From a virus: a stretch of 64,000 nucleotides of DNA. The notes under the pieces are model-generated. The model searched no databases. It was given only the letters and a program-made list of their open reading frames with translations, and was not told the origin of the DNA. The stretch is from IMG/VR virus record IMGVR_UViG_3300048997_000130, positions 1 to 64,000 of that record; one strand, written 5' to 3'. This document shows positions 17,787 to 59,277 of this stretch, piece after piece. The position numbers and the translations under genes are program-made. Numbering within the stretch: position 1 is the first letter of the stretch; every line of letters starts with the position of its first letter.

Positions 17787-18683
17787 TCAGCGCGTTACAA
17801 TCAAACGGACCAAGCCGCGTGGATTATAGGCACCAATCCCAAGATTCTCGAAAATCGAGAATCCTATTGTACGATCTTCCGTATTATCCGCCGAAAGAAC
17901 AGTGAGTTCCGTCCGGACTGGAATACGGCCGAAATGCTCGGGCTCGCAGCAGCAGTACACAACACCTGCCGGAACCAGTCTGGATACAATGAACTGGGCA
18001 TTCCAGCCGGTCGCCATCATGCCAGTCTTCCAAAGTGTGGCCTGTGATTCAATATCCAGGACATCACGACCGAACTTCCGGACGTCTGCATAATCACGTG
18101 CGTTCATGTAAACGCGCGCAACACGCAAATCATGGAATTCGATTTCAGCGAACGCGTCTGCAAGGACGGCCGGCGAAATCGGAGCAACAACCGGAATATC
18201 CGGATTGGTTCCACCTGGAAGACTATCAAAACCATTGATAGCAATGGCGTCCATGATGCTGAAGACGCGATCGTCTTCAGCCGCTTGGATTTGAGCCTTA
18301 CCAAGATCCTGCATACGCTTCAGAAGGTCGTATCGACGCTCCTTGATCTGCGTGAGAGGAGCTCGCGGCAGGGCCGCAATCTCGAACAACGGGAAAATCA
18401 CGCGGCGTGGCTTCATAACCGCCGTGATGCTCTCGCCTTCCTCACCAATCACGTATGCCGTGACGTCAGGATCCTTATCATAAATCGGCAGAGCTCCATC
18501 AGGAATCTGCTCGACTAAAAAGGTTTTGCGACCAACTGACGAATAATCGCGGCGTTCGCGCAAGGATTGGATCATCGAAGCTGCTAACCGGCGACGGCCA
18601 GCATTAGTTCCGATGTGTCTGTCAACAATTTGTTCCCGAATGGTGTTATCAACCACCTGGACGCCGAAGTTATTAGGATTCAT
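17787..18683 (-). CDS. Probable major capsid protein
   Basis: A 298-residue protein of the size and style of HK97-fold capsid proteins. It has an N-terminal helical arm rich in Arg (NAGRRRLAASMIQSLRERRD), an extended-loop-like region (FLVEQIPDGALPIYDKDPD), a long spine-like helix (LLKRMQDLGKAQIQAAEDD), and a strand-rich C-terminal domain ending NPRGLVRLIVTR. It is an inference from position and appearance: it sits two genes after the putative scaffold gene in the leftward head-gene run, is followed by tandem terminators, has a strong Shine-Dalgarno (AAGGA), and uses markedly more G/C-rich codons than the rest of the window, as highly expressed virion genes do. I do not recognise it by a catalytic motif, so fold prediction would be the check. 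Confidence 0.75.
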   Translation of the reverse strand: MNPNNFGVQVVDNTIREQIVDRHIGTNAGRRRLAASMIQSLRERRDYSSVGRKTFLVEQIPDGALPIYDKDPDVTAYVIGEEGESITAVMKPRRVIFPLFEIAALPRAPLTQIKERRYDLLKRMQDLGKAQIQAAEDDRVFSIMDAIAINGFDSLPGGTNPDIPVVAPISPAVLADAFAEIEFHDLRVARVYMNARDYADVRKFGRDVLDIESQATLWKTGMMATGWNAQFIVSRLVPAGVVYCCCEPEHFGRIPVRTELTVLSADNTEDRTIGFSIFENLGIGAYNPRGLVRLIVTR

Positions 18684-18707
18684 GATATTTAGTTCCTTTC
18701 CTTCGGC

Positions 18708-19376
18708 TTAGCCGATGAACGCCAATAAGGCGAACATTTCGGCAGAGGTTGCATCACCGGGTGAAATGACCGTGCCCATACGGGTGCAGTCGGGTTCAGT
18801 TCCAGCTAAGGAACCTCCGCTACCGGAAACTCCATCAATCCACTGATTCTCATACGAATCCTGCCAACGATTCGTAAGAAGCCCGTTGACCGATGCATAG
18901 AGCTTATCGCCAATAGCATAGGTTAATGCTGTTCCGACAACGCCACTGCCTTTGGTCGTCTGAACTTGAGTTTCATAGACCTTGACGCCGACCGAACCGC
19001 CACGAAGGAATGGGCCTTTACCCGAAGCCACACCTGGCGTGTTTTCATTAGCATTACCTAACGAATCATTGATGAATAGCCCGAGAGGTCGAGTACCCAC
19101 GACGTATGCAGAGCTAACTTGCACTGCACCGCCAACGGTATTCCCACCGATATCGGGGCGAGTAAACGCCACTGAACCACCAAGAACGCCCCTCTTCACT
19201 GTTGAAGGAAGAGTGGTCGATCGTGCCGATGTAGTGACAACCACACTCGGATTGCTCTGTGAAAACCCGTCCGCCGCAAGATTAAGGATAGTATCCTTAA
19301 TTAGGGAGTACAGGATCCGGAGCGCACCTTGATTACCGCGGAAGTCCGCAGATGCTTGCCCGTTAATTGATCCCAT
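18708..19376 (-). CDS. Probable virion structural (decoration/stabilising) protein
   Basis: A 222-residue Gly/Ser/Thr-rich, strand-rich protein with few charged residues and long loops (GGSVAFTRPDIGGNTVGG). It lies 24 bases upstream of the capsid gene, has GGAG and AAGG elements before its ATG, and shares the G/C-rich codon use of the capsid gene. Small beta proteins next to the capsid gene are often capsid decoration or vertex proteins. That is inference from context; no family is recognised. Confidence 0.55.
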   Translation of the reverse strand: MGSINGQASADFRGNQGALRILYSLIKDTILNLAADGFSQSNPSVVVTTSARSTTLPSTVKRGVLGGSVAFTRPDIGGNTVGGAVQVSSAYVVGTRPLGLFINDSLGNANENTPGVASGKGPFLRGGSVGVKVYETQVQTTKGSGVVGTALTYAIGDKLYASVNGLLTNRWQDSYENQWIDGVSGSGGSLAGTEPDCTRMGTVISPGDATSAEMFALLAFIG

Positions 19377-19562
19377 GTTGCCTTTTTCTCCAGTTGCGTC
19401 AGTCCAAAGCTGCTCTATACAGAATCTTCCTCATTAAATCTGGGATTCAGTCCAAGTTTCCTTGCGAATCCGTCAAATTAGAATATGGATTTATCTGTTA
19501 GTATGACCTTGAAACCTCCGTTGGAAACCTGTTTAAGTATCCTTTATTTGTATTCTTGCGAC

Positions 19563-19580
19563 GAGGGGTTTGAATCCCTC
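19563..19580 (-). terminator. Weak stem-loop after the scaffold-like gene
   Basis: GAGGG and CCCTC form a 5-bp stem with an 8-base loop, 5 bases beyond the stop codon at 19586. There is no T tract. It superficially recalls a tRNA T-arm but the loop is the wrong size. The rest of the 209-base gap to 19376 shows no clear gene. Confidence 0.3.
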
Positions 19581-19585
19581 AGAAT

Positions 19586-20800
19586 CTATGGACGATCCCA
19601 CAAGTTCGACAGTTCATCAGTTGGAACTGGAGCGGCTCGCATTTGTCCAAGTTTGCGAGCACCGGTTGAGGCCGTACGGGCTACGGGCTTGCCGCCGTAG
19701 CCGGATTGAGCTCGTTCAGCTGCAACGATTTCACGTTGCGCTTGGACTTCCGGATTATCTGCAAACAAATCCGATAAATCCTGATTATCACCAGCTGTTC
19801 GGCCTGAATCATCATCTTCGTCGTCATCTAATGAGATTGCGAATCCACTAGATGCCATTTGGGTCTGAACAGCATCGGGTTCCTCATCGTTCCCAGCTGC
19901 CACAGGAGCCGCCATGGGCACTGGAGGCATGGGCGATTGGAACAGCTCCGTCAGTTCTGGAGCAGGAACTGGAGGAACAGGAGCCACCATTGTTGGAACA
20001 GGAACACATGCTTCATCAGCAAGCATCTGATCTAACATAGAGACGTCCGATGCCGACATATTGCCGTCATCATCCGTCTGATGCTCCGTTGAAGTAACTT
20101 CCTCAGGTTCTTTTACTTCCTGAGCTTGTACTTCTTTTTTATCATCTTCACAATCAGCTTGAGCAATTCGAGCTTGAGCCGAAATCTTCAAAATCTCTTT
20201 CAAAGTCGGATCATCAATTGACATGAAAACAGAAGCCATGCGTTGAATAGTGTCCGCGTCAACACCATCTGGCAAAACATTTTGTGAAAGTTTGCAACAA
20301 GCCAAGGCTCGACGATATTTCTGATCGCGCGTCAGAGCATTGGGCGATATCTGATCTAAACGCTTGAGCGAAGCTATGACTGATTGAGCTGGCAAAGCCA
20401 TCAAATCAATCATTTGCTCTTCCAGCAATTTTTCATCTGCTGTGCGAAGAAGCGTACGAGCAAGTCTTTCAACAAAAGCCGCTTTGCGCTGAACTGCAGC
20501 TAAGCGCTGATTGTCGTATTTACCAGAACCATTCCACTGGTCCGAGTCTTTGTGTTTGAAGGTATCATCACGGAATTCGCCGAAACCGAGTTCGTTCCGC
20601 TTCACGTGATCGCCTTCATACTCCATTTCCACCGATTTACTGGAGGCTGGAGTTTCTGCCCAACTATCAGGATCTCCATTTTCATACTCAACAGCCGAAG
20701 GTTGAGGATGCTCCTGGTTCATCTGATAAATGTCAGCTTGTCGTGATGTTGCCGCCTGTCGCGGGCTGCTGGGGGTCCAAGTTGTGCGCAGACGGTTCAT
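19586..20800 (-). CDS. Putative scaffold/core protein
   Basis: A 404-residue protein with a helical middle (RLAAVQRKAAFVERLARTLL and following) and an acidic, Pro/Met/Val-rich disordered C-terminal half with runs of Asp/Glu (DDDEDDDSG). Acidic, helical, low-complexity proteins encoded between the prohead protease and the capsid gene are typical scaffolds, which the protease removes. The Shine-Dalgarno GGAGG is strong, and a short GATAAA/TTTATC inverted repeat ends at the ATG. Function is inferred from position and composition only. Confidence 0.5.
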   Translation of the reverse strand: MNRLRTTWTPSSPRQAATSRQADIYQMNQEHPQPSAVEYENGDPDSWAETPASSKSVEMEYEGDHVKRNELGFGEFRDDTFKHKDSDQWNGSGKYDNQRLAAVQRKAAFVERLARTLLRTADEKLLEEQMIDLMALPAQSVIASLKRLDQISPNALTRDQKYRRALACCKLSQNVLPDGVDADTIQRMASVFMSIDDPTLKEILKISAQARIAQADCEDDKKEVQAQEVKEPEEVTSTEHQTDDDGNMSASDVSMLDQMLADEACVPVPTMVAPVPPVPAPELTELFQSPMPPVPMAAPVAAGNDEEPDAVQTQMASSGFAISLDDDEDDDSGRTAGDNQDLSDLFADNPEVQAQREIVAAERAQSGYGGKPVARTASTGARKLGQMRAAPVPTDELSNLWDRP

Positions 20801-20842: not shown

Positions 20843-23533
20843 TTAAAATTTGTTGGACATTGTCGAGATATTGCCAAGATTGGAGAAAAAAATTTTTTCA
20901 TCTGTTGATAAGGCATGTCCGATGCGCAGTCTACAAGCTGCTAAGAAAGATGTTCCACTCGGATAATTAGAAGCAGAACCTAATTGCATAGCAGTTTTAT
21001 AATATATGGCCGGACGTGCTTTAGACTGGACAGTGTCATTGATCCATGAAAGGACTATTAGATCTCGTGAAGAAAGCGTTGAAGTCTGACCGTGTTCTAT
21101 AAGCTTTCGAGTTGCGGATGCCCATTTAGCAAGCTGCGGATGATCTTTAAATATTTGATTTACAGAACCAATAAACTCCGTACTAGATAGTAAAGTATTA
21201 TTCAAATCTCCACCAGCAAGACCTGAATCTGATGTTGATGGAATAGCTGCTGGAACATCAGCTGGATCAGGAACCAGTTTATCACTCAATTTTTTCAACA
21301 GAGCCTCGACAAGCATCTCTTGAGCTTTGTTGATCATGTCTTCAATACTGGATTGTCCGACATCGGGAGCTGGAGATTCTGTAGTAGACTCTTCAGGATT
21401 CGATGGTTCGTCTGGTGAAGAATCTAAATCATCGAGTTCTGAATCTGAATTTGAATCTGAATCTGAATCTGAATTTTGTTCATCGGCCGCGACTTTTCGA
21501 AGTCCATCGATGTGCAAATCATTTTTCCGTATTTCATATATAGTTGCAGCCTTTTCAAGCGCTGCAACAGTTGCGGTGGAATCCGGATTCAAAATATTAC
21601 GGCGTGTGGCTCCAGTAAATGCTGGATTGCGCACCCAAGAAGCTTCAATAAATTGATTACTATTAGGGACAGATACATGGCCAATGAGTTCAGCCAATTT
21701 ATGTTCAATACCATTTTCATCACGAAACATAGTATTTTTGCCATCATATAAAACATGATTACATAACTGAGTCTCATCGACAGCAACGTTCCCGCAATGG
21801 CTACATACTGTGAACAAACTAATGCAGTTAGATATGCCGATTCCATCAGCAATGTAAGAATGATCATTATCTACTTGGAGATCATATACAAATCCTTGGT
21901 AGTCATAAGTATCAATGGAATGGATTCGAGTATAAACATGATTCCCAGCAATCCAACGATCACGACTTCCGGAATTTTGCTCTTTAAAAGAACCACCAGA
22001 ATTCTTGATCTTTACTGACGGAATTTTAGAAACTCCAGACGAACGAATACGGATTTGATAATCAACTTCTGCCGCATTAGGCAGCATCTTTGTGCCAGAT
22101 CTCTGGACTTTAGTTAAAGTTCCGATAAGACCACAACGATTTAAAATCGTCATATACTGATTGGCTAAATTTTCATTTCGTGTCGAAATAAATATTTGCT
22201 TTGTTCCTCGTTTGGAAATACTGATACATCCATTAGAATCTATTATTCCTGACAAAAATGCGAGTTGATGGGACTTCGGCCACAGCATTACGTCTTGGGT
22301 CACGCATTTATCAAGAGCCTTACGACCCATTGAATGATTATCAATGAAGTCTCGGACGGCACGAGAAGTCGACAAAATGTAATCCGCATTTCGTCTAATA
22401 TGACGATGCACCATTTCCGGGGCTGATCCCCCCACAGCAAGCCGCATCTCTTTGGCAAGCCACGAAATACGATTGATTTCAGATTCTACGAATCCAGAAA
22501 TCTCTGAATATTGTTGGCTTGAGTCCAAACAAAATCCAACTCCAATAGTGGAGTTGTGTTTATTATCGAATTTCCACCCATCCCCTATCCAAAGACCTAA
22601 CAGTCGAGCTTCAGATTCTGAACAATGCGGCTTGGATTCGCCTTGCAAGATTGGCGTAGCAATTACATCTCCGGGCAGCAGATCACCGGCTTCACGATAT
22701 TCAAAGCTATAAGCAATTGGGATGATTCGCTGCAGTCCTTTTCGTTCCGTGAACTGAAGTTCAGAACGTGGAACCGCATAAAATTTATGATTATCTGTGA
22801 AACTTAAAGCAGACAGTCCAATAGGCTTAATCCGACAGATTTTCCAGCGATTCTCACGAATTTGTAAGTTATCAACTCGACAAATGTTCCCTTTTTGGGA
22901 GATGACTTCCATATCAGGACGAATATCTTCAATCGGAAGCACCGTCCCATCAGCCATCAGCACCCGGGTTCCGGGTATTCCGCAGCCCATACTCATTGCC
23001 TTAATTTCCTCAGAAAGGATATCTTGGACGAGCAATTTATGCTTGCGATCAGTTGCTACTAAAATATCTATATAGCAAGTGTTACCTAAATCTCGTGCAA
23101 TAGCGTCAACAATAAATCCTTTGGAAAGTTCAGGAATTTGAATATGTTCAAGATAATTAGGTGATCCAATAAATGTCCGGTAAGTTGCCAATAATAGCGA
23201 ACGGCTCCACGCGTCGCCATTATTATTAATGATATTCTGACATTCAGGTTTAATACGGAAATCTGGATATCTGACATCGATTTGGACGCCGCGATCTAAA
23301 CGCTTTCCGGTTTTAGATCCTTCAGGAGCATATGTATCAACAGAAGCTACTATTGTACTATGAGATAGTAAATATTGATTAGGATCGCATTTCTGAAGAA
23401 CATTCTTAGCAACACGAACAACTTGATCTTTGGAGACTGCACCTTCATGTTGTTGGCGCAGTTCTTCCATCCATTCATCAAATCCAATATTGGATTTAGA
23501 TATTATTGCATTCGCGGTACGACGAAAAGCCAT
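20843..23533 (-). CDS. Prohead protease-like head protein interrupted by an intein
   Basis: An 896-residue precursor. The ATG at 23533 (MAFRRTANA) is chosen because GAGGA lies 5 bases before it; the GTG at 23551 has no site. Extein part 1 ends KAMSMG and part 2 resumes CISLFTVCSHCGNVA after a 386-residue intein (residues 184-569), leaving about 510 residues. His130 (LEHIQIPELSKG) and Ser181 (AMSMG) could be the His/Ser pair of a prohead serine protease, and the intein sits three residues after that Ser. Cys577, Cys580, Cys591 and His593 form a zinc-like cluster. The tail has Ser-Asp repeats and helices. Its place between portal-side genes and the putative scaffold supports a maturation protease, but the family is inferred. 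Confidence 0.6.
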   Translation of the reverse strand: MAFRRTANAIISKSNIGFDEWMEELRQQHEGAVSKDQVVRVAKNVLQKCDPNQYLLSHSTIVASVDTYAPEGSKTGKRLDRGVQIDVRYPDFRIKPECQNIINNNGDAWSRSLLLATYRTFIGSPNYLEHIQIPELSKGFIVDAIARDLGNTCYIDILVATDRKHKLLVQDILSEEIKAMSMGCGIPGTRVLMADGTVLPIEDIRPDMEVISQKGNICRVDNLQIRENRWKICRIKPIGLSALSFTDNHKFYAVPRSELQFTERKGLQRIIPIAYSFEYREAGDLLPGDVIATPILQGESKPHCSESEARLLGLWIGDGWKFDNKHNSTIGVGFCLDSSQQYSEISGFVESEINRISWLAKEMRLAVGGSAPEMVHRHIRRNADYILSTSRAVRDFIDNHSMGRKALDKCVTQDVMLWPKSHQLAFLSGIIDSNGCISISKRGTKQIFISTRNENLANQYMTILNRCGLIGTLTKVQRSGTKMLPNAAEVDYQIRIRSSGVSKIPSVKIKNSGGSFKEQNSGSRDRWIAGNHVYTRIHSIDTYDYQGFVYDLQVDNDHSYIADGIGISNCISLFTVCSHCGNVAVDETQLCNHVLYDGKNTMFRDENGIEHKLAELIGHVSVPNSNQFIEASWVRNPAFTGATRRNILNPDSTATVAALEKAATIYEIRKNDLHIDGLRKVAADEQNSDSDSDSNSDSELDDLDSSPDEPSNPEESTTESPAPDVGQSSIEDMINKAQEMLVEALLKKLSDKLVPDPADVPAAIPSTSDSGLAGGDLNNTLLSSTEFIGSVNQIFKDHPQLAKWASATRKLIEHGQTSTLSSRDLIVLSWINDTVQSKARPAIYYKTAMQLGSASNYPSGTSFLAACRLRIGHALSTDEKIFFSNLGNISTMSNKF
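21438..21475. repeat. Hexanucleotide repeat coding for Ser-Asp
   Basis: A run of GAATCT units (one altered to GAATTT) on the plus strand, coding on the minus strand for alternating Ser/Asp and Asn/Ser in the C-terminal extein of the protease-like gene. Such tracts are prone to slippage and length change. Confidence 0.7.
21827..22984 (-). other. Intein in the prohead protease-like gene (386 aa)
   Basis: Starts CGIPGTRVLMADGTVLPIED (block A), has FTDNHKFYAV (block B, His), LAGLIDADG-type motifs LLGLWIGDGW and FLSGIIDSNGCIS, and ends VYDLQVDNDHSYIADGI then ISN, with Cys as +1 residue. The penultimate residue is Ser where His is usual. In the second LAGLIDADG motif the catalytic Asp is replaced by Asn (DSNG), so nuclease activity may be partly lost. 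Confidence 0.92.
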
Positions 23534-23581
23534 GCTTCCTCGAATAAACACGACATATCAAAAATCTGATTATTCGGAAGC
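23534..23581 (-). promoter_or_regulatory. Long imperfect hairpin hiding the protease Shine-Dalgarno
   Basis: In the mRNA sense GCTTCCGAATAA (23581-23570) pairs with TTATTC-GA-GGAAGC (23547-23534), 12 pairs with a 2-base bulge and a 22-base loop. The 3' arm contains the GAGGA ribosome-binding site and ends exactly at the ATG. The gene is divergent from the plus-strand gene at 23599. Confidence 0.55.
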
Positions 23582-27790: not shown

Positions 27791-30700
27791 CTATTCTGTG
27801 TATCTATCTCCTTCTTTCTTCTTAGATACCAATCCGAGATTCTTGATTAGGCGATCTTTAATGTCGGAATCGTCAAGTAATTGTTCGCCAGCAGCGGACA
27901 ATAGAGTGCGTATCAATTCATTCATGTTAGCATCTTTGAGAGTGAACGCATCTTTTTGAAGCTCTGCGTGAGCATCATCCACATCAATATTGATTAGATC
28001 ATAGATATATGATATGGGCATAGATCCTTTACTATATAGATTAAACATGAAATCTTGGAGTTCGGAATTATCTCGCAGAGCCAATCTCGTAAATTGAAGT
28101 TTGGGATATAATAATTGCCTATTCCCATATTCATCTTCTTCAACATAGCCTTTTTTCTCAGCAACAGGAGCAAACAAATAATCTTCAACAAATGTTGATA
28201 CCATGTCTCGATATAAGAGATACATAGTATTCATAACATCCAAATGAATACGTTCACCTGAATATGTTGATTCACCAGTCAGCATAGATTCAGTGATTCG
28301 CAAACCAATAAACAACAATTTATTAGTGATCTCATATTCAGTACTAAGATCTAATAATCGATCTCGTGATCCAATTTCGTCCCAATGCAATTCGAAATTG
28401 GATACAATCGTAAAATCGGGATCGATCAAAGCCTGATCAACTTGATCGCGGATTCCATCAATATCCATCGATGAAGCTTTATCCGCCCAAACAATTCGTT
28501 TGGGCGTCATAGCACGAGATGCAATGGATGATTGTGCCTGACGGAGCTTATCCTGATAGTTCAACGTCCGAAGGCAGTTATGAGTGCGTGCTAAACCAGC
28601 ATAAAACGAGTGATCTTGATTTACTTCAAGACTAAAAACGGGGCCAGAAAATTCATTCGTAAGCACTTCTCGAATTTGATAATAATTATGTCCTTCAAAA
28701 ACTTTACTTTTCAAACCTAATTTACTTTGGTATCTATCAATACACAGGTCGAATAATTTAGAACTAAAACCTGATTGTTGTAATCGGAAAATATCAGATT
28801 GCAAATTAAATGCAATAGTATATAAAGGTTTAGTATTAATACAAAAAGACCCATTAGCTTGCCGCGCTGGTTTAGTTTTAACAGATTTCTTTAAACTCGG
28901 ATTTAAACCGATAGTATTTGTTAATACGAATATATGATCAACTAATTGTTTGGTTGTCATTGCGATAGAAGCTGAATGACATCCAGTTCTACCGGTAGAT
29001 TTCCAACCATCTGAATCAATTAAACCACGTAAAATTCCGAATTTGAATTCTGGTGATGTGGAATGAATCCAATTCGGTAATTTCTTGTCTGATTTATTAT
29101 GACCAAAATTCCGACCTACCCATCGAGAAAACCAATCATCATGAATTTGCAACCATCCGAGTTCATATTCATGTGATTGCAGATCCAGTCCTAGATTCTT
29201 CAAAACATCAAATATGAACGCGACTGATTTAGCGCTTGCCTCAGAATCTTGTTGCCAACATATACCAGTTGGGCCATATTTAGTTGCAGATGGTCTGTTG
29301 GATTCAGTCCATCCATCACCAAGATAATAACCTATGAAATAACCCAGATCAGCAGTCAATTCTAATGATTTGGGACAAAATTGAACATAATTCAATTCAT
29401 ATAAAGGCCTTGGATCCAGATCCGCTCTATGGAACCGGCGAGCTTGTGATTTATATGTAGAATCGGATTGAACGCAAACGGTCAAATAACCGAGTTTGGA
29501 AAGGTCTTTTAAAATAGCTCTATAAACAGATTTGCCAGCAATTCCAAATTTCTCTTGGAATGTAGCATATAGCATATCAATTGGCGAATCCAAATTCCGA
29601 ATCCAATCACAAATTTGGACAAGAATTTGGCTCCGCATATCGCGTTGCGGATTATTATCTGTTCGACGATGAGTTAAAATCAACTCTCCGTCATGGATAT
29701 CCGCTGATATTGATAATGCATGCTTGGTCTTCGTCCTCCGACAATTGAATGTCCATTGTTCAGAATTAAAAAACGTATTTAAATCAAAATCATGTAGAAC
29801 GAGATCGGCATTAATATGGGCAATTTCAATATAATCACCAGGCCGAGCATTTTGAGCTTCTACATCAAGAAATTGATTATCTCTCAAAATCCGGATTTTA
29901 TGATCCGATGTGGACCATATAATATTAGGGAGTTTGCAAATTTGTAGTCCAACAGTTTTTCCTGAATATTGACGGGAACCATGTTGGAACGATCTCCAGT
30001 TACCACTCCCACCAAGCACTTGATCAGTCTGCGGATCTAATTCCTCAATCGGAATTTGTAAAACTTCACCGTTTCGAAGTGCAGTGATTTCGGTCCCTGG
30101 AAGATGGCAACGTTCTAATATTGATATACCCCGATCGTTATATGCTGATCGTTTATGCGCTAAATAATAACAGAATGAAGAACATAAGAATTCTTCATAC
30201 GGACTCGTATTCAACGGAATAGGCTGCCCATTTAAAAGATTGTTACGAATTTCTTCTGGAATGTCGTTAGCAATACGAACGGCTTCCGGATCTTTGGTAT
30301 CTTCAGCACGCAAAACAAGCAAACGATCTTTCTCGGATGGAATAAGTTCCATCCGAGATTTATTAGTATATTGGAAGACTTCAAGTTTCACTTGTTCAGG
30401 AGGCAGGATTTGAAGTCTCTCCCATCCAAGATAATTATCCTGAACATATTTCAAAATGGCGGTTTGTTGTTCATTCTCGGGTTTGGGTTTCCTGGTCTTG
30501 ATTTTTTTAGTATTAGAACGCCCAGCATAATCAATTTCCCCGATTTCTTCTTCCGTAATGTCTGAGATTAAGTCTTCAGGAATTTCATTATGTAAGTCAT
30601 GATCTTCACAAAAGATAAATACTCCGCCGTGAAGCCAATATTCATGAGTGGCATCATATAAAGTTTGAAATAATCGGACTCGCTTGCACATTTCTTGATA

Positions 30701-32206
30701 AAAATGCAAGATTTGTTTATTCCGTTTAGGATCCTTGCCTTTTGGCAAAGATAAACGAATTTTGGACATTGGTACGTCGGTATTATGGGTCGCCAACCCA
30801 TAAGCTATGTAACTCTTCCGATCTCCATCACCATCGACTTCAATGTTATATACTGGTCCATCATATTGAACAGTTCCAACTTTTTCGATTCTTCTCAATA
30901 CGTTATTATTGATTTGAATACAGTTTTCACGAGTTGAATCGGAATGATAGCCATCTTGCACAAAATTAGCATATCTCGAAAATTCAGAATGGAAACGATA
31001 CGGAATAATGATCCGATAAATCGAACTATTTGATTTAAAATCTGTGTCCGAGTCTTCCGGTTCATGACGATGGAGCGTTGGTGCATATCCAACCTTCAAA
31101 GCAAGAGCATAAATTTGATGCGCTAATTGTTTGGATATTGTCGTAGCGACATATCCACTTTTAGTAAGACTACCATCACCATTCCAATATGCACCTAGGA
31201 ATTCTAGTATATCTTCTCTAGCTGAATCAATAATATCGAGGCTAAGTTGTTTATATAGGGACTCACTTCCAACGTGTTTTAAACAGAATTCTGCAAAATC
31301 TTTTTTATAACATCTAACTTCACATACACTGCAGTCTTTTTGCTCACGTTTCTGAGCAACGTGCTTATATTCATTCCCAAACAATTCAACAATTTCGTTA
31401 GCAATGGAGTCGAATTTATCAATATTTAGAGAAAAAATTACTTTATCTAGTTTATCGTATTTAGTATATGATAAAGAGCCTTCAGCCGCATAATATCCGA
31501 GTAAACGCAATTGCGCTCGATTAAAAATAGACTCAGAATTGACCAGAGAAGGTGAACATATATAATCGCCAATTTTTAAGTCCTTGGCAAATACGAATCC
31601 CGGCTTCCCAAAATCAAGACTATGTTGAGAGGGTTTGTAATCAATTTGCTCAGCACGATAAACTAGAAACGGATGGTTTTCAGTGCAATCAATATCTCCC
31701 TGAATATTTTGCACCTTCAAACGAGTGACTGGCCCACATATATCATGTTTGAAGGTTTGAATTACTTTGGTCGATTCTCCGAATCCATTAATGACTTCAT
31801 CACCAACACTCAATGATTCAATGGAATTGACTGATCCATCTTTCATCATCACCGGAGCGCCGGGTGGGAAACAATGGAAGTCAATTGCCGCTCCCACTAT
31901 AGGATGTACGTTATACCAAAATCTAAATAATTCGCGCTTTTCGCGTTCTGATTGCGGTAATTCAAGGAAGTCTGTAGAAAGCTGGGGACTATAAAATTGA
32001 GAATCCGCGGCACTTATAGAGCCGGATCCATTATTACCATATCCGGAAAACCCACCACTACTGATCATAGCAACGCGTATGGATTGCGAAGCTTCTCTGC
32101 GAGCTTGTTTTTCTAGTTTAGTGAGTTGACGAGTCGGAACCGATTGGACATCCACGTGTTTAACTGGATGACCTACTCGAGTTTTGTTACGGGATTTGTT
32201 AGCCAT
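27791..32206 (-). CDS. Portal protein with two inteins
   Basis: A 1471-residue precursor; removal of two inteins (residues 112-475 and 700-1210) leaves 596 residues, a normal portal size. Extein junctions rejoin portal motifs: AIDFH with TDVPMSKIRLSLPKG, and GISILER with CLRTLNYQDKLRQAQ. Other portal features are FRFWYNVHPIVGAA in the N-terminal region and LDVMNTMYLLYRDMVSTF near the C-terminus. The portal is the dodecameric ring at one capsid vertex through which DNA enters. It lies downstream of the terminase gene with two small genes between. Both inteins must splice for a working portal. The family is inferred from motifs and from its position beside terL. Confidence 0.88.
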   Translation of the reverse strand: MANKSRNKTRVGHPVKHVDVQSVPTRQLTKLEKQARREASQSIRVAMISSGGFSGYGNNGSGSISAADSQFYSPQLSTDFLELPQSEREKRELFRFWYNVHPIVGAAIDFHCFPPGAPVMMKDGSVNSIESLSVGDEVINGFGESTKVIQTFKHDICGPVTRLKVQNIQGDIDCTENHPFLVYRAEQIDYKPSQHSLDFGKPGFVFAKDLKIGDYICSPSLVNSESIFNRAQLRLLGYYAAEGSLSYTKYDKLDKVIFSLNIDKFDSIANEIVELFGNEYKHVAQKREQKDCSVCEVRCYKKDFAEFCLKHVGSESLYKQLSLDIIDSAREDILEFLGAYWNGDGSLTKSGYVATTISKQLAHQIYALALKVGYAPTLHRHEPEDSDTDFKSNSSIYRIIIPYRFHSEFSRYANFVQDGYHSDSTRENCIQINNNVLRRIEKVGTVQYDGPVYNIEVDGDGDRKSYIAYGLATHNTDVPMSKIRLSLPKGKDPKRNKQILHFYQEMCKRVRLFQTLYDATHEYWLHGGVFIFCEDHDLHNEIPEDLISDITEEEIGEIDYAGRSNTKKIKTRKPKPENEQQTAILKYVQDNYLGWERLQILPPEQVKLEVFQYTNKSRMELIPSEKDRLLVLRAEDTKDPEAVRIANDIPEEIRNNLLNGQPIPLNTSPYEEFLCSSFCYYLAHKRSAYNDRGISILERCHLPGTEITALRNGEVLQIPIEELDPQTDQVLGGSGNWRSFQHGSRQYSGKTVGLQICKLPNIIWSTSDHKIRILRDNQFLDVEAQNARPGDYIEIAHINADLVLHDFDLNTFFNSEQWTFNCRRTKTKHALSISADIHDGELILTHRRTDNNPQRDMRSQILVQICDWIRNLDSPIDMLYATFQEKFGIAGKSVYRAILKDLSKLGYLTVCVQSDSTYKSQARRFHRADLDPRPLYELNYVQFCPKSLELTADLGYFIGYYLGDGWTESNRPSATKYGPTGICWQQDSEASAKSVAFIFDVLKNLGLDLQSHEYELGWLQIHDDWFSRWVGRNFGHNKSDKKLPNWIHSTSPEFKFGILRGLIDSDGWKSTGRTGCHSASIAMTTKQLVDHIFVLTNTIGLNPSLKKSVKTKPARQANGSFCINTKPLYTIAFNLQSDIFRLQQSGFSSKLFDLCIDRYQSKLGLKSKVFEGHNYYQIREVLTNEFSGPVFSLEVNQDHSFYAGLARTHNCLRTLNYQDKLRQAQSSIASRAMTPKRIVWADKASSMDIDGIRDQVDQALIDPDFTIVSNFELHWDEIGSRDRLLDLSTEYEITNKLLFIGLRITESMLTGESTYSGERIHLDVMNTMYLLYRDMVSTFVEDYLFAPVAEKKGYVEEDEYGNRQLLYPKLQFTRLALRDNSELQDFMFNLYSKGSMPISYIYDLINIDVDDAHAELQKDAFTLKDANMNELIRTLLSAAGEQLLDDSDIKDRLIKNLGLVSKKKEGDRYTE
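28577..30109 (-). other. Portal intein 2 (511 aa)
   Basis: Begins CHLPGTEITALRNGEVLQIP, has STSDHKIRIL (block B), a winged-helix-like insert (KSVYRAILKDLSKLGYL), LAGLIDADG motifs YFIGYYLGDGW and ILRGLIDSDGW, and ends FSLEVNQDHSFYAGLAR then THN, with Cys as +1. Both nuclease motifs keep Asp, so homing activity may be intact. Confidence 0.93.
30782..31873 (-). other. Portal intein 1 (364 aa)
   Basis: Begins CFPPGAPVMMKDGSVNSIES, has CTENHPFLVY (block B), LAGLIDADG motifs RLLGYYAAEGSLS and FLGAYWNGDGSL, then VYNIEVDGDGDRKSYIAYG and the C-terminal THN with Thr as +1 residue. All splicing residues look canonical. In the first nuclease motif Glu replaces Asp (AAEG). Confidence 0.93.
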
Positions 32207-33104: not shown

Positions 33105-36100
33105 TTATCTTCTACGATATTTAGGTATACGGCGTTCTTTTGGTGGAAGACCATGTAAATAAGATCGATTCCGCTGGAATTGATGATATCCAACAGACAC
33201 CGGCCGAGTGATTACATTAGTATTAATATCACCCATCAATAAAGCAGATGGATTCTCACGAATATATTCAGCAGCTAAATATGCACTACGTACAAGCGAA
33301 TCTGAAAAATCATCGTGTTTCCCTAACATATCTGGAGCTTCAACTACTAAAATATTCTTTCCGCCGGATGTAGCTTGAAGCTCTAACAATTCTCGAATAT
33401 GCGGTGAGTGACGAATTTGAATTGATGCTAAAGAGTTGTCGATTTCTGGAAGTGGATAATCATATAAAGCTAGTTGTCGGCTATACATCAACATCTTAGC
33501 AGTCTGATACATGACCGAGCTATCAGATGTTGTGAAATTTTTCATATCAAATTGAATTAAACCGGCTTTATGTAATTTTTGTTCAAATATAATGCCAGCC
33601 CATTGATCAAATAAACCTCTTTGAATATAGAATCGCTTCGAAATAATTACTAACCAGTTAATTATTTCATCTAAATCTAACTTTGATTGATCTTGAAGCG
33701 TTAGAGCATATGGTACTAATGGAGTAGATAAGTGTGGATTAATTTCTTTCCAATTCCGACCTGCATACCACATTTCATGGTAACCAAGTTGAATTTTCCC
33801 ATTATTGATATGAGTCAAAGATATTGAAGTCCCGTCTTTGACCAAAGCAAAATCAAGTCCAGCAAAGAATGGTTCCCGAGGATTCCCACGGATCAAAGGA
33901 CGTAAATCAGCCACACAACAATCCAATAAGTCATGAGCATTTTCGATCCAACCGCGGATACGATCTGAGAATTGAGCGCCATATTCTGTTTCGAATCCAT
34001 TAGGATCCTTGGCAAATTCTATTTCATATTCCATCGGATCAATGGTCGGATTCACTTCCCAAGTAGGGGCTTGAATCATCAACATATTGGACGATGCGAT
34101 ACCATTCGAAAGCGCTAATTCATATAATTTATAGAACAATCCAGCCTTCGGACCAGGCGAAGAAATACAAATCATTCGACCGTCACTGGGTCCAATAGGA
34201 ATGCGCCGATCGTTGGCGTCTTTAGGTGAAAATTGCTTTAAAGAAGGCGACATCGCCTTATACACTTGTTCGTCGGAGCTTTTTCCGTCATTGATGAAAA
34301 AAGCGAATTCGTCAAGAATACAACAAATAACGCCACGACCACGAAGACCTTTGGCGACTGAACTTTTAAATGTCGATGTTATAGTTGCTTTTCGCGCGTC
34401 ATCTTTAAATTTTTCGTTATCATTAGCAGTCCGGAACTTCATATATACTTGCGTATCATGAGTCATGGAACTTTTGAAATAATCTACTTGAGCAACATGG
34501 CTAGACATTTCACCATAAACAATGCTAGCTTGGTCTTTATCATTGGCTATGCAAAATAATCGAATCTCAGATCCAGGGAGCATGCCATAATATGCTTGCG
34601 GACAATAACGACGAAGAAGTTTATATGTTTCATAAGCAGAAATTAATCCAGCCAAAGCGCTGTTATGATTAGTCATACCATTCGCAACAAATGACTCACC
34701 ATTTGGCACTGTCAAATCATAGACTCTGCATTTATCTTGACCAATCGTTACAACGGGATCAAAATAATAATTATTATTTTGAAGTGTCTCAAGTTCTGCA
34801 ATAAGAACTGGGTCTGCAAAATATTCTTTCGCTTTCTGAATTACCCGATGCAGTCTTATGTAACTTATATTTTCTCCTGAACCAGGCTTTGCGACGTTTC
34901 CGCATGTTTCTTTTAACCAAGTTCGTTTCCTATTAGGAACACTTCCGGATTTGTTATTACATGCAATCGGGATAGATTGTATTAACTTGCGTAAACGTTC
35001 TTTTTGAAATGGAATAGCTTCAGTATCAGAATGCCCATTATTACCGTCTTCAATCCCTCGAATCAGTATTTTTCGTTTTCTATCCGTTATAAATCCAATT
35101 TGCTCAGCAAACAACTTCCTCGATTCATATCCAAGGATATGAATGCAATAATAATATCGCTTATATTTCTTATTCCATTTCTGACGGATTCTAGATATGA
35201 TTCCGAAATTCAGAAGGAGTATTTGGATTTCTGTCGCTAAACGAGTAGAAGCCGTACAAGCACTAATAAGCGATCCTGATTTTTCAAGACCTCCGTCTGT
35301 CTCAAAGAATCCTCTTAAAAATGCCGCTACAACAGATTTTGGACTTTTAAAAATCGACCACGGAACATGCTTATTGCTAGGTTTAGATGAATCATATCCA
35401 AGAAGCCTCAAAAGCTTTCTTACAGCTGTGGAATATATAGATATTGACCAAGGAAATTTTGGACATGTGGATGATCGAGATTTCTTCCTGTATATTGTGT
35501 GATGATCAAATTCGCTGTCTAGTAATAATTCGACAAATTCACGAAGTTCTTCGCATCCACCGGTTATTTGAATAGAGCTGGTTCGTCCCCATGTTCCATC
35601 ACCGACCAATAATCCGAGCAATAATCCCCAGCGTTCATTTAAAATATCAGGAAATTGAATATTACGACGATTGCAATATTTATATTTATCAAATGGGATA
35701 TGGGTTGGCAACCACTCAATGGTTGATCCCGATCGTTTATTAAACAGAACCTTGCGGAAAATTATTCCAAATTTGGCACGCAATGTTGCCAGTAATTTTT
35801 GCAGTTCAGGAATCGACATTCCGAGTTGCTTTGCAACCTCAGCTCGAGACATCGTGACTGGATCATCCAATAAACGGAGCCATTCACAAAATTTTTCTTT
35901 ATTAAGTTGTGGCCGGCTCAAGTGTGGAGGTATTAGACATTGTTCATGGAACTGTTGAATTGATAAATAATCTTGAGTCCATAAATCAGTATTCCTGTGA
36001 ATGGCAACAAAATCGCCGGTTTGAATATCTGTTAGATATTTCCAAGTTACCACTCCATCATGACCGAGGACTTTAATTCGATGATTATCAGTCCCTGTAA

Positions 36101-36707
36101 TATTATAACCACAGTAAGTCGTTATTGATTTAACATCACGAACACCATCATTATAAAATTTAGCAGATTTGCTATAATGCTTACGACCTTCTTGGGCTAC
36201 TGTTACGTTCAAATCTTGCCATTCTGGTCCAGCAGGGTCTCCGAGTTCCTGGATTGATATAATACCTTTCTCAGTTAAAACTAAAGTATCACCTTTCACA
36301 CATTTCCCACTTCTCCTACCGATTGCCAAAATCAGTTCGTGGCGTTCTTTTTTATCTTGTTCTTTAATATTGCATCGACCATTATCATACAAATATCTGA
36401 GATACTGGACTTCAGTTAAATCAACAACATCTTTTTTCCGGAAAGTTGATGAAACTCGTATTCTATCAGATGGTTTTTCCGGAAGTATAGTATCCAACTG
36501 AATATTATAATATATTTTAAGAATAAATTTCTGGACTGGATATAGTCCATTAGGTATTAAATTAAATTGATCAATAAATTCAATAATATTTAAGAATTGT
36601 GGATTATATTCATCTTTATCTGGAGTTTTATGTTTTCGCTTCTCATGTAAGAATTTATCAAGTGTTCCAGATAAATCACTTTTATCACGCTTTTCATTAC
36701 TAGGCAT
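33105..36707 (-). CDS. terL: Terminase large subunit with intein
   Basis: A 1200-residue precursor; excising the 547-residue intein (136-682) leaves 653 residues, usual for TerL. The intein divides the Walker A motif: AIGRRSGK before and SALAGL after. Walker B with the catalytic Glu is VICCILDEFAFF. The RNase H-like nuclease domain starts at FFAGLDFALVKDGTS with its first Asp, and later SDSLVRSAYLAAEYI carries a late Asp. TerL translocates DNA into the prohead through the portal and cuts the concatemer. Downstream are two small genes and the portal; upstream is a candidate small subunit. Confidence 0.95.
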   Translation of the reverse strand: MPSNEKRDKSDLSGTLDKFLHEKRKHKTPDKDEYNPQFLNIIEFIDQFNLIPNGLYPVQKFILKIYYNIQLDTILPEKPSDRIRVSSTFRKKDVVDLTEVQYLRYLYDNGRCNIKEQDKKERHELILAIGRRSGKCVKGDTLVLTEKGIISIQELGDPAGPEWQDLNVTVAQEGRKHYSKSAKFYNDGVRDVKSITTYCGYNITGTDNHRIKVLGHDGVVTWKYLTDIQTGDFVAIHRNTDLWTQDYLSIQQFHEQCLIPPHLSRPQLNKEKFCEWLRLLDDPVTMSRAEVAKQLGMSIPELQKLLATLRAKFGIIFRKVLFNKRSGSTIEWLPTHIPFDKYKYCNRRNIQFPDILNERWGLLLGLLVGDGTWGRTSSIQITGGCEELREFVELLLDSEFDHHTIYRKKSRSSTCPKFPWSISIYSTAVRKLLRLLGYDSSKPSNKHVPWSIFKSPKSVVAAFLRGFFETDGGLEKSGSLISACTASTRLATEIQILLLNFGIISRIRQKWNKKYKRYYYCIHILGYESRKLFAEQIGFITDRKRKILIRGIEDGNNGHSDTEAIPFQKERLRKLIQSIPIACNNKSGSVPNRKRTWLKETCGNVAKPGSGENISYIRLHRVIQKAKEYFADPVLIAELETLQNNNYYFDPVVTIGQDKCRVYDLTVPNGESFVANGMTNHNSALAGLISAYETYKLLRRYCPQAYYGMLPGSEIRLFCIANDKDQASIVYGEMSSHVAQVDYFKSSMTHDTQVYMKFRTANDNEKFKDDARKATITSTFKSSVAKGLRGRGVICCILDEFAFFINDGKSSDEQVYKAMSPSLKQFSPKDANDRRIPIGPSDGRMICISSPGPKAGLFYKLYELALSNGIASSNMLMIQAPTWEVNPTIDPMEYEIEFAKDPNGFETEYGAQFSDRIRGWIENAHDLLDCCVADLRPLIRGNPREPFFAGLDFALVKDGTSISLTHINNGKIQLGYHEMWYAGRNWKEINPHLSTPLVPYALTLQDQSKLDLDEIINWLVIISKRFYIQRGLFDQWAGIIFEQKLHKAGLIQFDMKNFTTSDSSVMYQTAKMLMYSRQLALYDYPLPEIDNSLASIQIRHSPHIRELLELQATSGGKNILVVEAPDMLGKHDDFSDSLVRSAYLAAEYIRENPSALLMGDINTNVITRPVSVGYHQFQRNRSYLHGLPPKERRIPKYRRR
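34662..36302 (-). other. TerL intein (547 aa)
   Basis: Begins CVKGDTLVLTEKGIISIQEL, has GTDNHRIKVL (block B), a helix-turn-helix-like insert (VAKQLGMSIPELQKLLATL), LAGLIDADG motifs GLLLGLLVGDGTW and FLRGFFETDGGL, and ends VYDLTVPNGESFVANGM, then NHN, with Ser as +1 residue. It interrupts the ATP-binding P-loop, a site where only precise loss is tolerated. Confidence 0.94.
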
Positions 36708-55749: not shown

Positions 55750-58700
55750 CTAACTGCCCGCTCCAACAGCTTGAAGTGCTTCTACGAGAGTCTCGGGAGC
55801 ACGCAAACTCTCTAAAACAAATTCGGAAATTTGTTTTCCTAAATCTGAATTCCGAACGTTATCGCGTTCATTGGCAGCAGCATATAAAAATGCGTTCGGA
55901 TCACCGAATAGAAATACCTTTTTCTTGGCACGAGTAATAGCTGTATAAATAAGATTCCGATATAACATCATCCCGTATTGCATAGTCATTGGCATAAGGA
56001 TATAATCGAACTCTCTACCTTGGCAATTCCATCCGCAAAATCCATTTTGAATAAAACGATGACCATCCGGGACTTCAACACACATAGATGGTCCATCAAA
56101 TATCTCAATACGCGATATAACACTATGATGGAATTTAATCCGCTCCCGTAAAGCTCGTGATTCGTTGTTTTCTATCTGAATCCGAGATAATAGGGATTCC
56201 AATTGATGGCGAGACATATAACCACGCGTCAGAACATTTTTGTCCGCAAAAGTAAAAAATTTAGGACCACCGTTAATATCTCTAATTGATAACGCTTCAG
56301 CTTTAAGTATTGGAACTTGATAATGGCATTCATTTCCATATAGAGATTTCGCTCGTAGTTGTTTCTCATCAGTTATGAAACCGATAACATCAGCAAATCG
56401 ACCAACATTCCGACCATATATATAAATAATACGATAAGTTTTCACACACCCATCACTCAGTGTTTGACGACGCTCGCCATATCCAGATATGATGCCAAAA
56501 CGAAGTAACATCACTTTCACGTCTTTATATAATGATTCATAGCAGGTTAGTAACTCAATATGATCAACAGTCCCTAGATCTGGATTCATATTGACAGTGC
56601 CATCTTCAAACAAACCGCGCAAGAAGGCTGCTTGCACGGTCAGTGAAGAACGTAAAACAGATAATGGAACAGATTTATTTTCCGGTCCGATTCCTCCAAT
56701 ATCTAGAAGCCAGCGAGATAAAAATGTGGAATGGACTTCAATACCAGCGGTTCCGTTATGATCAATATGTTTCGGATGGCATTTAAAAAGTAACTTACAT
56801 AATTCATCGAAACGTATGATTACATCATTGGATGATGTAATCATACGAAATCCACCATCAAACACAGTTCCATCTGCGACCATTATGCCAAGAAATTCCG
56901 CCATATGAACATCCAATTCCGTAGGCACCGGATATTGGACTTCATTATAATGACCGCTGATAGGAGCAGGAAGAAACCTATTCGATTGCTCCCCCCATTG
57001 AACGCCAAGACGCAAAGCCAGTAAATTTCCTTCCACAAGCTCTGAAGCCGGACGACGAATATATCCATATTTAGAATCCCAAGTATCCATTCCATGATCA
57101 GGAGTGGTTTCAAGTACGTAACCATCTGAAGTGGTTATACGAAGCATACGACTGGAAGGATTATTGACTTTGGAATGATATTCAGCGCCGCCAGAAGGAG
57201 TAGCAATAGAACCATCAGATGGTATATCAGAAATCCGAATTAAACCTTCTGGAGTCTCAACTAGTGTATCCGGAGACACACATTTATGCGCTGTACATGC
57301 ATATGCAACATTCAACATTGAACGACATTCTTCAATCTTGAATGTGAATGTCTTATCTATATATTCAGGAACAGTAGATTCATGATTGAACCATTCAAAT
57401 ATTTTGACTTCAACCACGTCATCTTTAGCCGATATACGTTGGACTTTTCCAACGTCTCCATTGAAAATCATTCTATCATAGTCATTCTTCACGACCATGA
57501 TTCGATCCCCTTCATATAAATCACAAACGCCATGTTTTATTTTATAAGCATTGCCAGCGATATACATAGGATTTAATATCTCTCGCAATTTCTTATTTAG
57601 ATTATTAACTCCAAGTTCGCCATCATATTTAGGAGCAATAACTTGAAATAATGCGTCACGTGTCATCATTCTTTCAGTGAGGGCACATATTTCGTCAGCT
57701 ACTTGAGGCTGTGGGAAACGGAAAAATACGAATTGAGAATCCTTTCGAAAATCAGTATCTATTGCATCCCCAGCAAGTATCTGATGTGCCACTGTTATAA
57801 TATCAGACCTATCAGTCTGTCGATAAATCCGAGTCAATGATACATGCGGAACATCATCACAACGCATCAGATTATTGAGAACATAACCAGCGCCAACTGA
57901 TGGTAATTGTGCAGAGTCCCCAACACATATCAAAATAGTAGTAGATGGAAGCGCCGAAATTAAATGATAAAATGTTGCTCCATCAACCATTGAAGTTTCA
58001 TCAACAATGACAGCATCAACATGGAATTTATTCGATGAATGAAATTCCCATCCGCCATCTCGTTTATATCCAAGAGCCCGATGAATTGTAGAAGCCGGTT
58101 TCCCCGTCACTTGTGATAATCGTTTAGAAGCAATACCAGTTGGTGATAATAATACATAATGTAGATGATTCTCTTCGAATAAATCAACAAATGCAGAAAT
58201 TAATGTGGTCTTCCCGGTTCCAGGATAACCTGATATAACACACACTTTGGAATGTTCAAGCAGCATTAATGCTTGACGTTGATGCTCCGAAAGCGTTATA
58301 TTACGACGTTTTTCATATTTATCCAAAAATCCAGATAGATCACCCAAATCTTTTGGTCCATTGGCAAGTAAGTCCACTAAATATTTAGCAGATTCAGATT
58401 CATATTGCCAATTTTGGATTGAATATATTCGGGAATTATCAACGACTATATCATCATCTTCTTTTAATTGATCAAGAGCTGTGTAGAACGAAATATCTGA
58501 TAAATATTCACCATGAGAAAATGGATCGAGTCCAATTTTTTTGAACAGCCTTTGAACATACTCACGAATCTGATCCGCGGATACATACATATGTCCTTCA
58601 GATGATGATAATTCATGGATGATATATAAAATCATTGCATTAACACGGCGTTGATCGTCTCGACCGACTCCCAATTGCCGAGCAACGTTATCGGACGTTT

Positions 58701-59277
58701 GAAATCCAACGCCAGGACATTCATACAGCCAGTATGGATTTTCTTTGACTAATCGAACTGATTCAATTCCGAATCTAGTATATACGGATCGAATCTGAGA
58801 AGCAGTTAAACCTAAATTACTAAGGAATATTGCGGCCGTTCTCTGTTCAGAAGCTACTCGCCACTCATCAATTATAGATTCAATCTGTTTCTGGCTAAGA
58901 AAATCACAATCGGCAAGCTTTTCGGGCTCCGTATCCAACAATGTTATAAGATCATCACCATAAACTGCATATAATTTTCCAGCTGTTACTGGACCAATGG
59001 ACGGAACGTTATTCACTAAATATGTGATTATTCCAGATCTACTTTTTTCTGGTAATACTTCACAAGTAGTCATTCGAAATTCACGTCCATACTGGGGATG
59101 ATCGCCCCAGATGCCACGTGCATGAATTTTAATACCGACAGCTACAGGTTGACCAAGGAATGATCCCTTAACTGTAACTACAGACGCTGGTTTCTCAGGT
59201 TGAACCTTAAGAATATAATATCCAGTGCCCCGGTTGGAATACATAATTCCAACAATTTTTCCGATGAGTTCTTCCAC
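55750..59277 (-). CDS. recD2: RecD2-like helicase with intein
   Basis: A 1175-residue precursor; excising the intein (666-1084) leaves 756 residues. Order: an OB-like N-terminus (MEELIGKIVGIMYSNRGTGY), helix-hairpin-helix repeats (90-210), then a superfamily 1 helicase with Walker A SGYPGTGKTT (349-358), Walker B VIVDETSM (423-430), GDSAQLPSVG, and IYRQT. After the intein the C-terminal UvrD-type motif resumes with CQGREFDYILMPMT, so the intein divides TAHK-CQGRE, part of the helicase core. RecD2 unwinds DNA 5'-3' and helps recombination or fork repair. The start is GTG. Confidence 0.92.
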   Translation of the reverse strand: MEELIGKIVGIMYSNRGTGYYILKVQPEKPASVVTVKGSFLGQPVAVGIKIHARGIWGDHPQYGREFRMTTCEVLPEKSRSGIITYLVNNVPSIGPVTAGKLYAVYGDDLITLLDTEPEKLADCDFLSQKQIESIIDEWRVASEQRTAAIFLSNLGLTASQIRSVYTRFGIESVRLVKENPYWLYECPGVGFQTSDNVARQLGVGRDDQRRVNAMILYIIHELSSSEGHMYVSADQIREYVQRLFKKIGLDPFSHGEYLSDISFYTALDQLKEDDDIVVDNSRIYSIQNWQYESESAKYLVDLLANGPKDLGDLSGFLDKYEKRRNITLSEHQRQALMLLEHSKVCVISGYPGTGKTTLISAFVDLFEENHLHYVLLSPTGIASKRLSQVTGKPASTIHRALGYKRDGGWEFHSSNKFHVDAVIVDETSMVDGATFYHLISALPSTTILICVGDSAQLPSVGAGYVLNNLMRCDDVPHVSLTRIYRQTDRSDIITVAHQILAGDAIDTDFRKDSQFVFFRFPQPQVADEICALTERMMTRDALFQVIAPKYDGELGVNNLNKKLREILNPMYIAGNAYKIKHGVCDLYEGDRIMVVKNDYDRMIFNGDVGKVQRISAKDDVVEVKIFEWFNHESTVPEYIDKTFTFKIEECRSMLNVAYACTAHKCVSPDTLVETPEGLIRISDIPSDGSIATPSGGAEYHSKVNNPSSRMLRITTSDGYVLETTPDHGMDTWDSKYGYIRRPASELVEGNLLALRLGVQWGEQSNRFLPAPISGHYNEVQYPVPTELDVHMAEFLGIMVADGTVFDGGFRMITSSNDVIIRFDELCKLLFKCHPKHIDHNGTAGIEVHSTFLSRWLLDIGGIGPENKSVPLSVLRSSLTVQAAFLRGLFEDGTVNMNPDLGTVDHIELLTCYESLYKDVKVMLLRFGIISGYGERRQTLSDGCVKTYRIIYIYGRNVGRFADVIGFITDEKQLRAKSLYGNECHYQVPILKAEALSIRDINGGPKFFTFADKNVLTRGYMSRHQLESLLSRIQIENNESRALRERIKFHHSVISRIEIFDGPSMCVEVPDGHRFIQNGFCGWNCQGREFDYILMPMTMQYGMMLYRNLIYTAITRAKKKVFLFGDPNAFLYAAANERDNVRNSDLGKQISEFVLESLRAPETLVEALQAVGAGS
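56026..57282 (-). other. RecD2 intein (419 aa)
   Basis: Begins CVSPDTLVETPEGLIRISDI, has TTPDHGMDTW (block B), LAGLIDADG motifs FLGIMVADGTVFDG and FLRGLFEDGTVN, and ends MCVEVPDGHRFIQNG, then FCGWN, with Cys as +1. The penultimate residue is Trp where His is usual. The second nuclease motif is one residue shorter than canonical. Confidence 0.92.

Follow-up and report, generated by a model that had tools for sequence, protein, structure and literature searches.

The portal gene of a large uncultured bacterial virus encodes a 1,471-aa precursor interrupted by two inteins, and we favour, at a probability of about 0.87, the reading that each intein excises itself independently and is a separate homing parasite, the two having been stacked in the gene by separate invasions. 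The window analysed here is the stretch of 64,000 nucleotides that makes up bases 1–64000 of the 196,676-base record of this virus (G000). An earlier note on this DNA had proposed a portal protein split by two inteins, inserted after residues 111 and 699 of the precursor and followed by Thr and Cys, respectively, as +1 residues. By sequence, that observation is confirmed, both insertion points and both +1 residues being correct, and the single portal ORF holds two full-length LAGLIDADG inteins. The interval 28577–31873, read on the minus strand, opens with the first codon of intein 1 and closes with the last codon of intein 2, and the gene extends beyond both ends. The features of the gene are as follows (a slash marks a splice junction; motif positions were converted by hand).

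27791–32206, minus strand: portal precursor gene, 1,471 aa, from a PHROG portal match and the ORF listing
31874–32206, minus strand: extein 1, portal residues 1–111
30782–31873, minus strand: intein 1 (site b), 364 aa, C...TENH...HN/T, LAGLIDADG type, from profiles and junction residues
31478–31504, minus strand: first LAGLIDADG motif of intein 1, LLGYYAAEG
31172–31201, minus strand: second LAGLIDADG motif of intein 1, FLGAYWNGDG
30110–30781, minus strand: extein 2, portal residues 112–335
28577–30109, minus strand: intein 2 (site d), 511 aa, C...TSDH...HN/C, LAGLIDADG type, from sequence and predicted fold
29432–29650, minus strand: winged-helix-like stretch of intein 2, intein residues 154–226, from model topology
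29312–29338, minus strand: first LAGLIDADG motif of intein 2, FIGYYLGDG
29006–29035, minus strand: second LAGLIDADG motif of intein 2, ILRGLIDSDG, with invariant D365, S366, D367 and G368
27791–28576, minus strand: extein 3, portal residues 336–596 plus the stop codon, from portal matches

The inserts occupy residues 112–475 and 700–1210 of the precursor; each has Cys as its first residue and His-Asn as its last two. Both inteins retain intact catalytic and junction residues, block B (T-x-x-H) and C-terminal signatures, and each has two LAGLIDADG motifs with their acidic residues. The whole precursor scores 39.5 bits against Pfam Intein_splicing (cut-off 35.8) and 66.5 bits, in two stretches, against LAGLIDADG_3 (cut-off 22.5). 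The NCBIfam model intein_Cterm recognises the inteins of the precursor, intein_Nterm stays below its cut-off, and a search of the virus's own record placed an intein C-terminus at the end of each insert. In each intein, Cys1 would attack the N-terminal junction, the +1 residue (Thr or Cys) would take over the chain and the terminal Asn would cyclise, so that independent excision of the two would leave a predicted portal of 596 aa. We infer this chemistry from the known intein mechanism; the sequence signatures that it calls for are all observed.

The Hint assignment of intein 1 comes from its sequence profile only, and intein 2 is confidently predicted to adopt a Hint–LAGLIDADG fold. Its AlphaFold2 model, built with seven relatives, has a mean pLDDT of 85.9 and a pTM of 0.81. 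The best solved match to this model is the TliVMA intein (Z 28.6, rmsd 4.0 over 319 residues); the model also matches intein homing endonuclease II (2cw7, Z 26.1), and the nuclease part by itself gives a structural match to I-DmoI. The possibility raised earlier that the second block is not an intein is thus answered by sequence and predicted fold together, both of which identify it as one. Its penultimate His is present in the window and absent from the site-d relatives.

The earlier note had also described a winged-helix-like insert ahead of the nuclease motifs of intein 2. The topology fits: in the model, residues 154–226 follow a helix–strand–helix–helix–strand–strand order and precede those motifs. 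The profile libraries lend the insert no name, with a best E value of 0.27 in PHROGs and one unrelated match in Pfam (E 0.16), neither significant, so that the label 'winged helix' rests on predicted topology. The wider insert (residues 118–239) is nearly gone in one relative, L089, in which 5 residues align, and it therefore behaves as a module. It probably provides extra DNA contacts for target recognition.

Several lines of evidence identify the extein as a portal. The portal family phrog_16240 is hit by the precursor at 3.1e-13 and by three intein-free relatives at 1.5e-25, 2.4e-28 and 1.5e-27. In tblastn searches, the last third of the precursor retrieves proteins annotated as portals in Bacillus phage G, Tunturiibacter phage Tunturi_5 and mycobacteriophages. 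An alignment to intein-free portals, the check proposed in the earlier note, bears this out, as the extein is continuous across both junctions when aligned with 31 intein-free portal loci. The gene sits in a head-gene order on the minus strand, with TerL (33105–36707), two small genes, the portal and, further on, the prohead protease (20843–23551). For L028, an intein-free portal, the AlphaFold2 model from 22 rows reached a pLDDT of 43.7, at which the junctions are not placeable on the portal fold, and a PDB sequence search with the portal gave no useful match.

Our scan of viral contigs yielded 45 portal loci with 65–80% identity in the last third. With L044, which lacks the N-terminal part, left out and the window included, there were 45 full portals, which came down to 34 representatives once those sharing 98% identity and one intein pattern were collapsed. 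Four sites, numbered on the portal of the window, are filled in this clade: a (after residue 99), b (after 111), c (after 164) and d (after 335). No intein is present in 22 of the 34 representatives. Single inteins occur at b (4 representatives) or a (1), double inteins at a and d (4) or at b and d (1, the window), and the remaining two portals carry three inteins at b, c and d (L066) and four at a, b, c and d (L057). Two inteins per portal are thus not rare in the clade of the window, where 7 of 34 representatives have at least two; the earlier description of the arrangement as uncommon holds for the literature that could be searched and fails for this clade. The L057 ORF, at 2,363 aa, comprises 1,756 residues of intein and 607 of extein, with a 12-residue extein, THPIVGAAIDFH, between its a and b inteins. 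The site-c intein of L066 looks decayed, with a block B that lacks Thr and with substituted LAGLIDADG acids.

In empty alleles the reading frame is unbroken across each junction. The +1 residue of empty representatives is Thr at b in 27/27, Cys at d in 26/27 and Thr or Ser at a in 24/28. The window itself has Val at site a, where a site-a intein could hardly splice. At c, Cys is found in 5/32 empty portals versus 2/2 filled ones (p = 0.037). Site d is filled only alongside a or b in this clade (7/7, with a or b present in 12/34 representatives; p = 1.5e-4, relatedness ignored), which could hint at co-transfer or constraint instead of independence.

A sister clade of 36 new loci (49–56% identity), obtained from an alignment scan that took 80 of 211 relatives, has no insert in 34 of its 36 members. 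L095 holds a d intein alone, and L089 has a d-type intein 3 codons downstream of d, where it has Cys and its relative L079 has Thr. The L089 intein is without the winged-helix-like module, and Ala replaces Asp in its first LAGLIDADG motif.

How the inteins are distributed speaks for movement. On a portal tree of 42 rows, filled and empty states change 12 times, equal to the number for shuffled labels (12.0), and L027 (b filled) and L029 (empty) differ in occupancy at 88% identity of extein DNA. For the seven d-inteins, the intein tree disagrees with that of the corresponding exteins (AU p = 0.0024, 3.5e-6, 0.0105 and 1e-41, for clades selected after the trees were seen). Patchy occupancy and discordance between intein and portal trees argue that the stack arose from separate invasions, as expected of homing parasites. 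Both portal inteins of the window encode what looks like an intact LAGLIDADG nuclease. In mixed infections, each would cleave portal alleles that lack it at its own insertion point and be copied into the break during repair; such invasions, made separately at different conserved positions of the gene, would then build the stack. Nucleotide identity around the junctions in six filled/empty pairs showed no clear or consistent co-conversion tract, and a DNA comparison with the phages collection found no near relatives.

Sites a and b, 12 codons apart, carry related inteins. In the intein tree, the clade's a and b inteins group together (100% support), with the b inteins as a single clade (99%), and the a-intein of L126, a portal outside the clade, joins this group at 90%. 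Across the two sites, a and b inteins reach 43–47% identity in their best matches, compared with 28–31% for the best matches among 24 other inteins. These data suggest that an intein spread from a to b, the direction being set by the one branch with 90% support. The lineage of intein 1 thus has relatives 12 codons upstream and, as the tree suggests, one site probably seeded the other.

Those 24 inteins, the next relatives of intein 1, come from a scan that gave 45 new loci, for 24 of which the flanks were read. Five of the 24 lie in portals, and four of these five portals have two inteins: L126 at a and c; L127 at 93/94 and c, in a gene that runs off the contig end; and L128 and L135, both at 93/94 and 348/349. 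The fifth, L136, has a alone. A similar scan for the intein 2 family outside portals returned 6 loci, all on contigs already in the sample. Portal inteins are also found in two cultured phages, both upstream of intein 1: by 18 residues in the mycobacteriophage Shnickers (junction 93/94, HW/CR) and by 5 residues in Eggerthella phage LE2-3 (junction 106/107), bringing the portal junctions mapped to eight in total. Four of the eight share a span of 19 residues, for which random placement gives P = 0.007. With junctions confined to the half of the gene that is more conserved, P becomes 0.026, and with the most conserved quarter it becomes 0.084; with six junctions counted as independent it is 0.05–0.23. 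A junction hot spot beyond conservation and descent was therefore not upheld once conservation was allowed for.

The portal is one of five genes of the record with inteins, six in all: two in the portal and one each in TerL, the prohead protease, a RecD2-like helicase and ribonucleotide reductase (junction QAPLG/TISFL). These genes lie at 20843–23551, 27791–32206, 33105–36707 and 55750–59277 of the window and at 112–4212 of L021. Three of these inteins lie in the window outside the portal.

34662–36302, minus strand: TerL intein at the Walker A motif, GRRSGK/S
21827–22984, minus strand: prohead protease intein, MSMG/C
56026–57282, minus strand: RecD2-like helicase intein, TAHK/CQG

The record also has a LAGLIDADG frame that stands alone and is about 250 aa long (144541–144987, L022), and the G+C content of window positions 18001–20000 is 0.51 against about 0.38 around them. 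Among relatives, TerL has at least three intein junctions (GRRSGK/S at Walker A, a second G-K/S upstream of SFKSS, and D-GK/S before SSA), which were seen in L031, L039, L040, L042, L049, L050, L051, L056, L057 and L061–L063; L042 and L056 have two TerL inteins at once. By eye, a prohead-protease-like gene in L138 (7494–10991) holds two inteins, and a gene of LE2-3 annotated 'tRNA synthetase' (MW679026, 45222–48335, L178) looks, from its VSMG...CSVCGN motif, like a prohead protease with an intein.

Three other accounts of the two inserts can be weighed against stacking by separate invasions. The inteins might be kept as a switch, with splicing delaying or conditioning portal maturation in capsid assembly or packaging. 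Four of the record's inteins do lie in head-assembly genes (two in the portal, one each in TerL and the prohead protease), and for the two TerL inteins of cyanophage Mic1 such control has been proposed (PMC7156551). The same record, however, has inteins outside head assembly, in the RecD2-like helicase and the reductase, and most representative portals are intein-free, with near relatives differing in occupancy, so that no conserved regulatory need is visible; we regard a switch as unlikely. Less probable again is travel of the two inteins as one unit with the portal gene, by vertical descent or co-homing, the gaps being losses. The constant company of d with a or b in the clade would fit such travel, as would the identities of b-inteins to intein 1 (60–73%), which are near the extein identities. 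It is called into question by the disagreement of d-intein and extein trees, by the alleles with b or a alone and, in the sister clade, d alone, and by L040, whose a-intein groups with L056 and L057 and whose d-intein groups with L054 in quick trees; such differing nearest relatives argue against travel as a unit.

The third account, that the inserts are decayed or the ORF an assembly artefact, so that no functional portal would be made, strikes us as very improbable. Nothing in the window favours it, and what can be said for it comes from the relatives L066 (site c) and L089 (d-type), whose inteins are without some nuclease residues. Against it, the catalytic residues are intact, the reading frame is open for 4.4 kb without a stop, and divergence is greatest at third codon positions of the inserts; frame and divergence together indicate that the inserts evolve as protein and did not arise by chance. 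Nor is there a second portal in the 196,676-base record, which may be a fragment.

Portal inteins and multi-intein genes are known already, and we found no earlier case of several inteins in one portal in the literature searched, which covered few subscription journals. Reportedly, one bacterial ribonucleotide reductase gene has four inteins (Liu et al. 2003), the same count as in the L057 portal but in a cellular gene. For the mycobacteriophages of cluster C1 (Bixzunavirus), PMC5050341 lists portal (PORT) inteins and gives the number 6. These inteins, like those of the window, interrupt a homologous portal gene, and the Shnickers junction lies in the same conserved segment; Shnickers differs in having one intein, of about 270 aa. 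The cultured phage LE2-3 (MW679026) likewise has a portal intein, but a single one at another junction, in a record that gives the product name just as 'portal protein'. Literature joining two inteins with a portal protein led to phages with both inteins in TerL: cyanophage Mic1 (PMC7156551) and a crAss-like phage, with up to 3 inteins per genome (PMC7886860). Both resemble the window in having two inteins in one packaging gene, but that gene is the terminase and not the portal. A further parallel is haloarchaeal MCM, which has four intein sites, with neighbouring inteins that interfere with each other's homing (PMC10643990). As in the portals of this clade, neighbouring sites in a conserved gene are occupied by nuclease-bearing inteins whose trees give no sign of co-homing; unlike the portal, known here from sequence, MCM is a cellular helicase in which homing was tested (PMC10643990).

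Portals with empty, single and multiple alleles at defined junctions offer a natural test bed for stacked inteins: the gene is short, presumably essential, and suited to studying how such inteins splice, spread and gain new sites, and the cultured phages with single portal inteins, Shnickers and LE2-3, make parts of this testable at the bench. A broader proposition, to which we give even odds, is that the portal gene of huge phages is an intein hopping ground, in which a seeded b 12 codons away, the L089 intein slid three codons to a position with a matching +1 Cys, and as many as four full-length inteins can accumulate, two of them 12 extein residues apart. If this is true, inteins would regularly gain new sites by shifting a few codons along conserved stretches.
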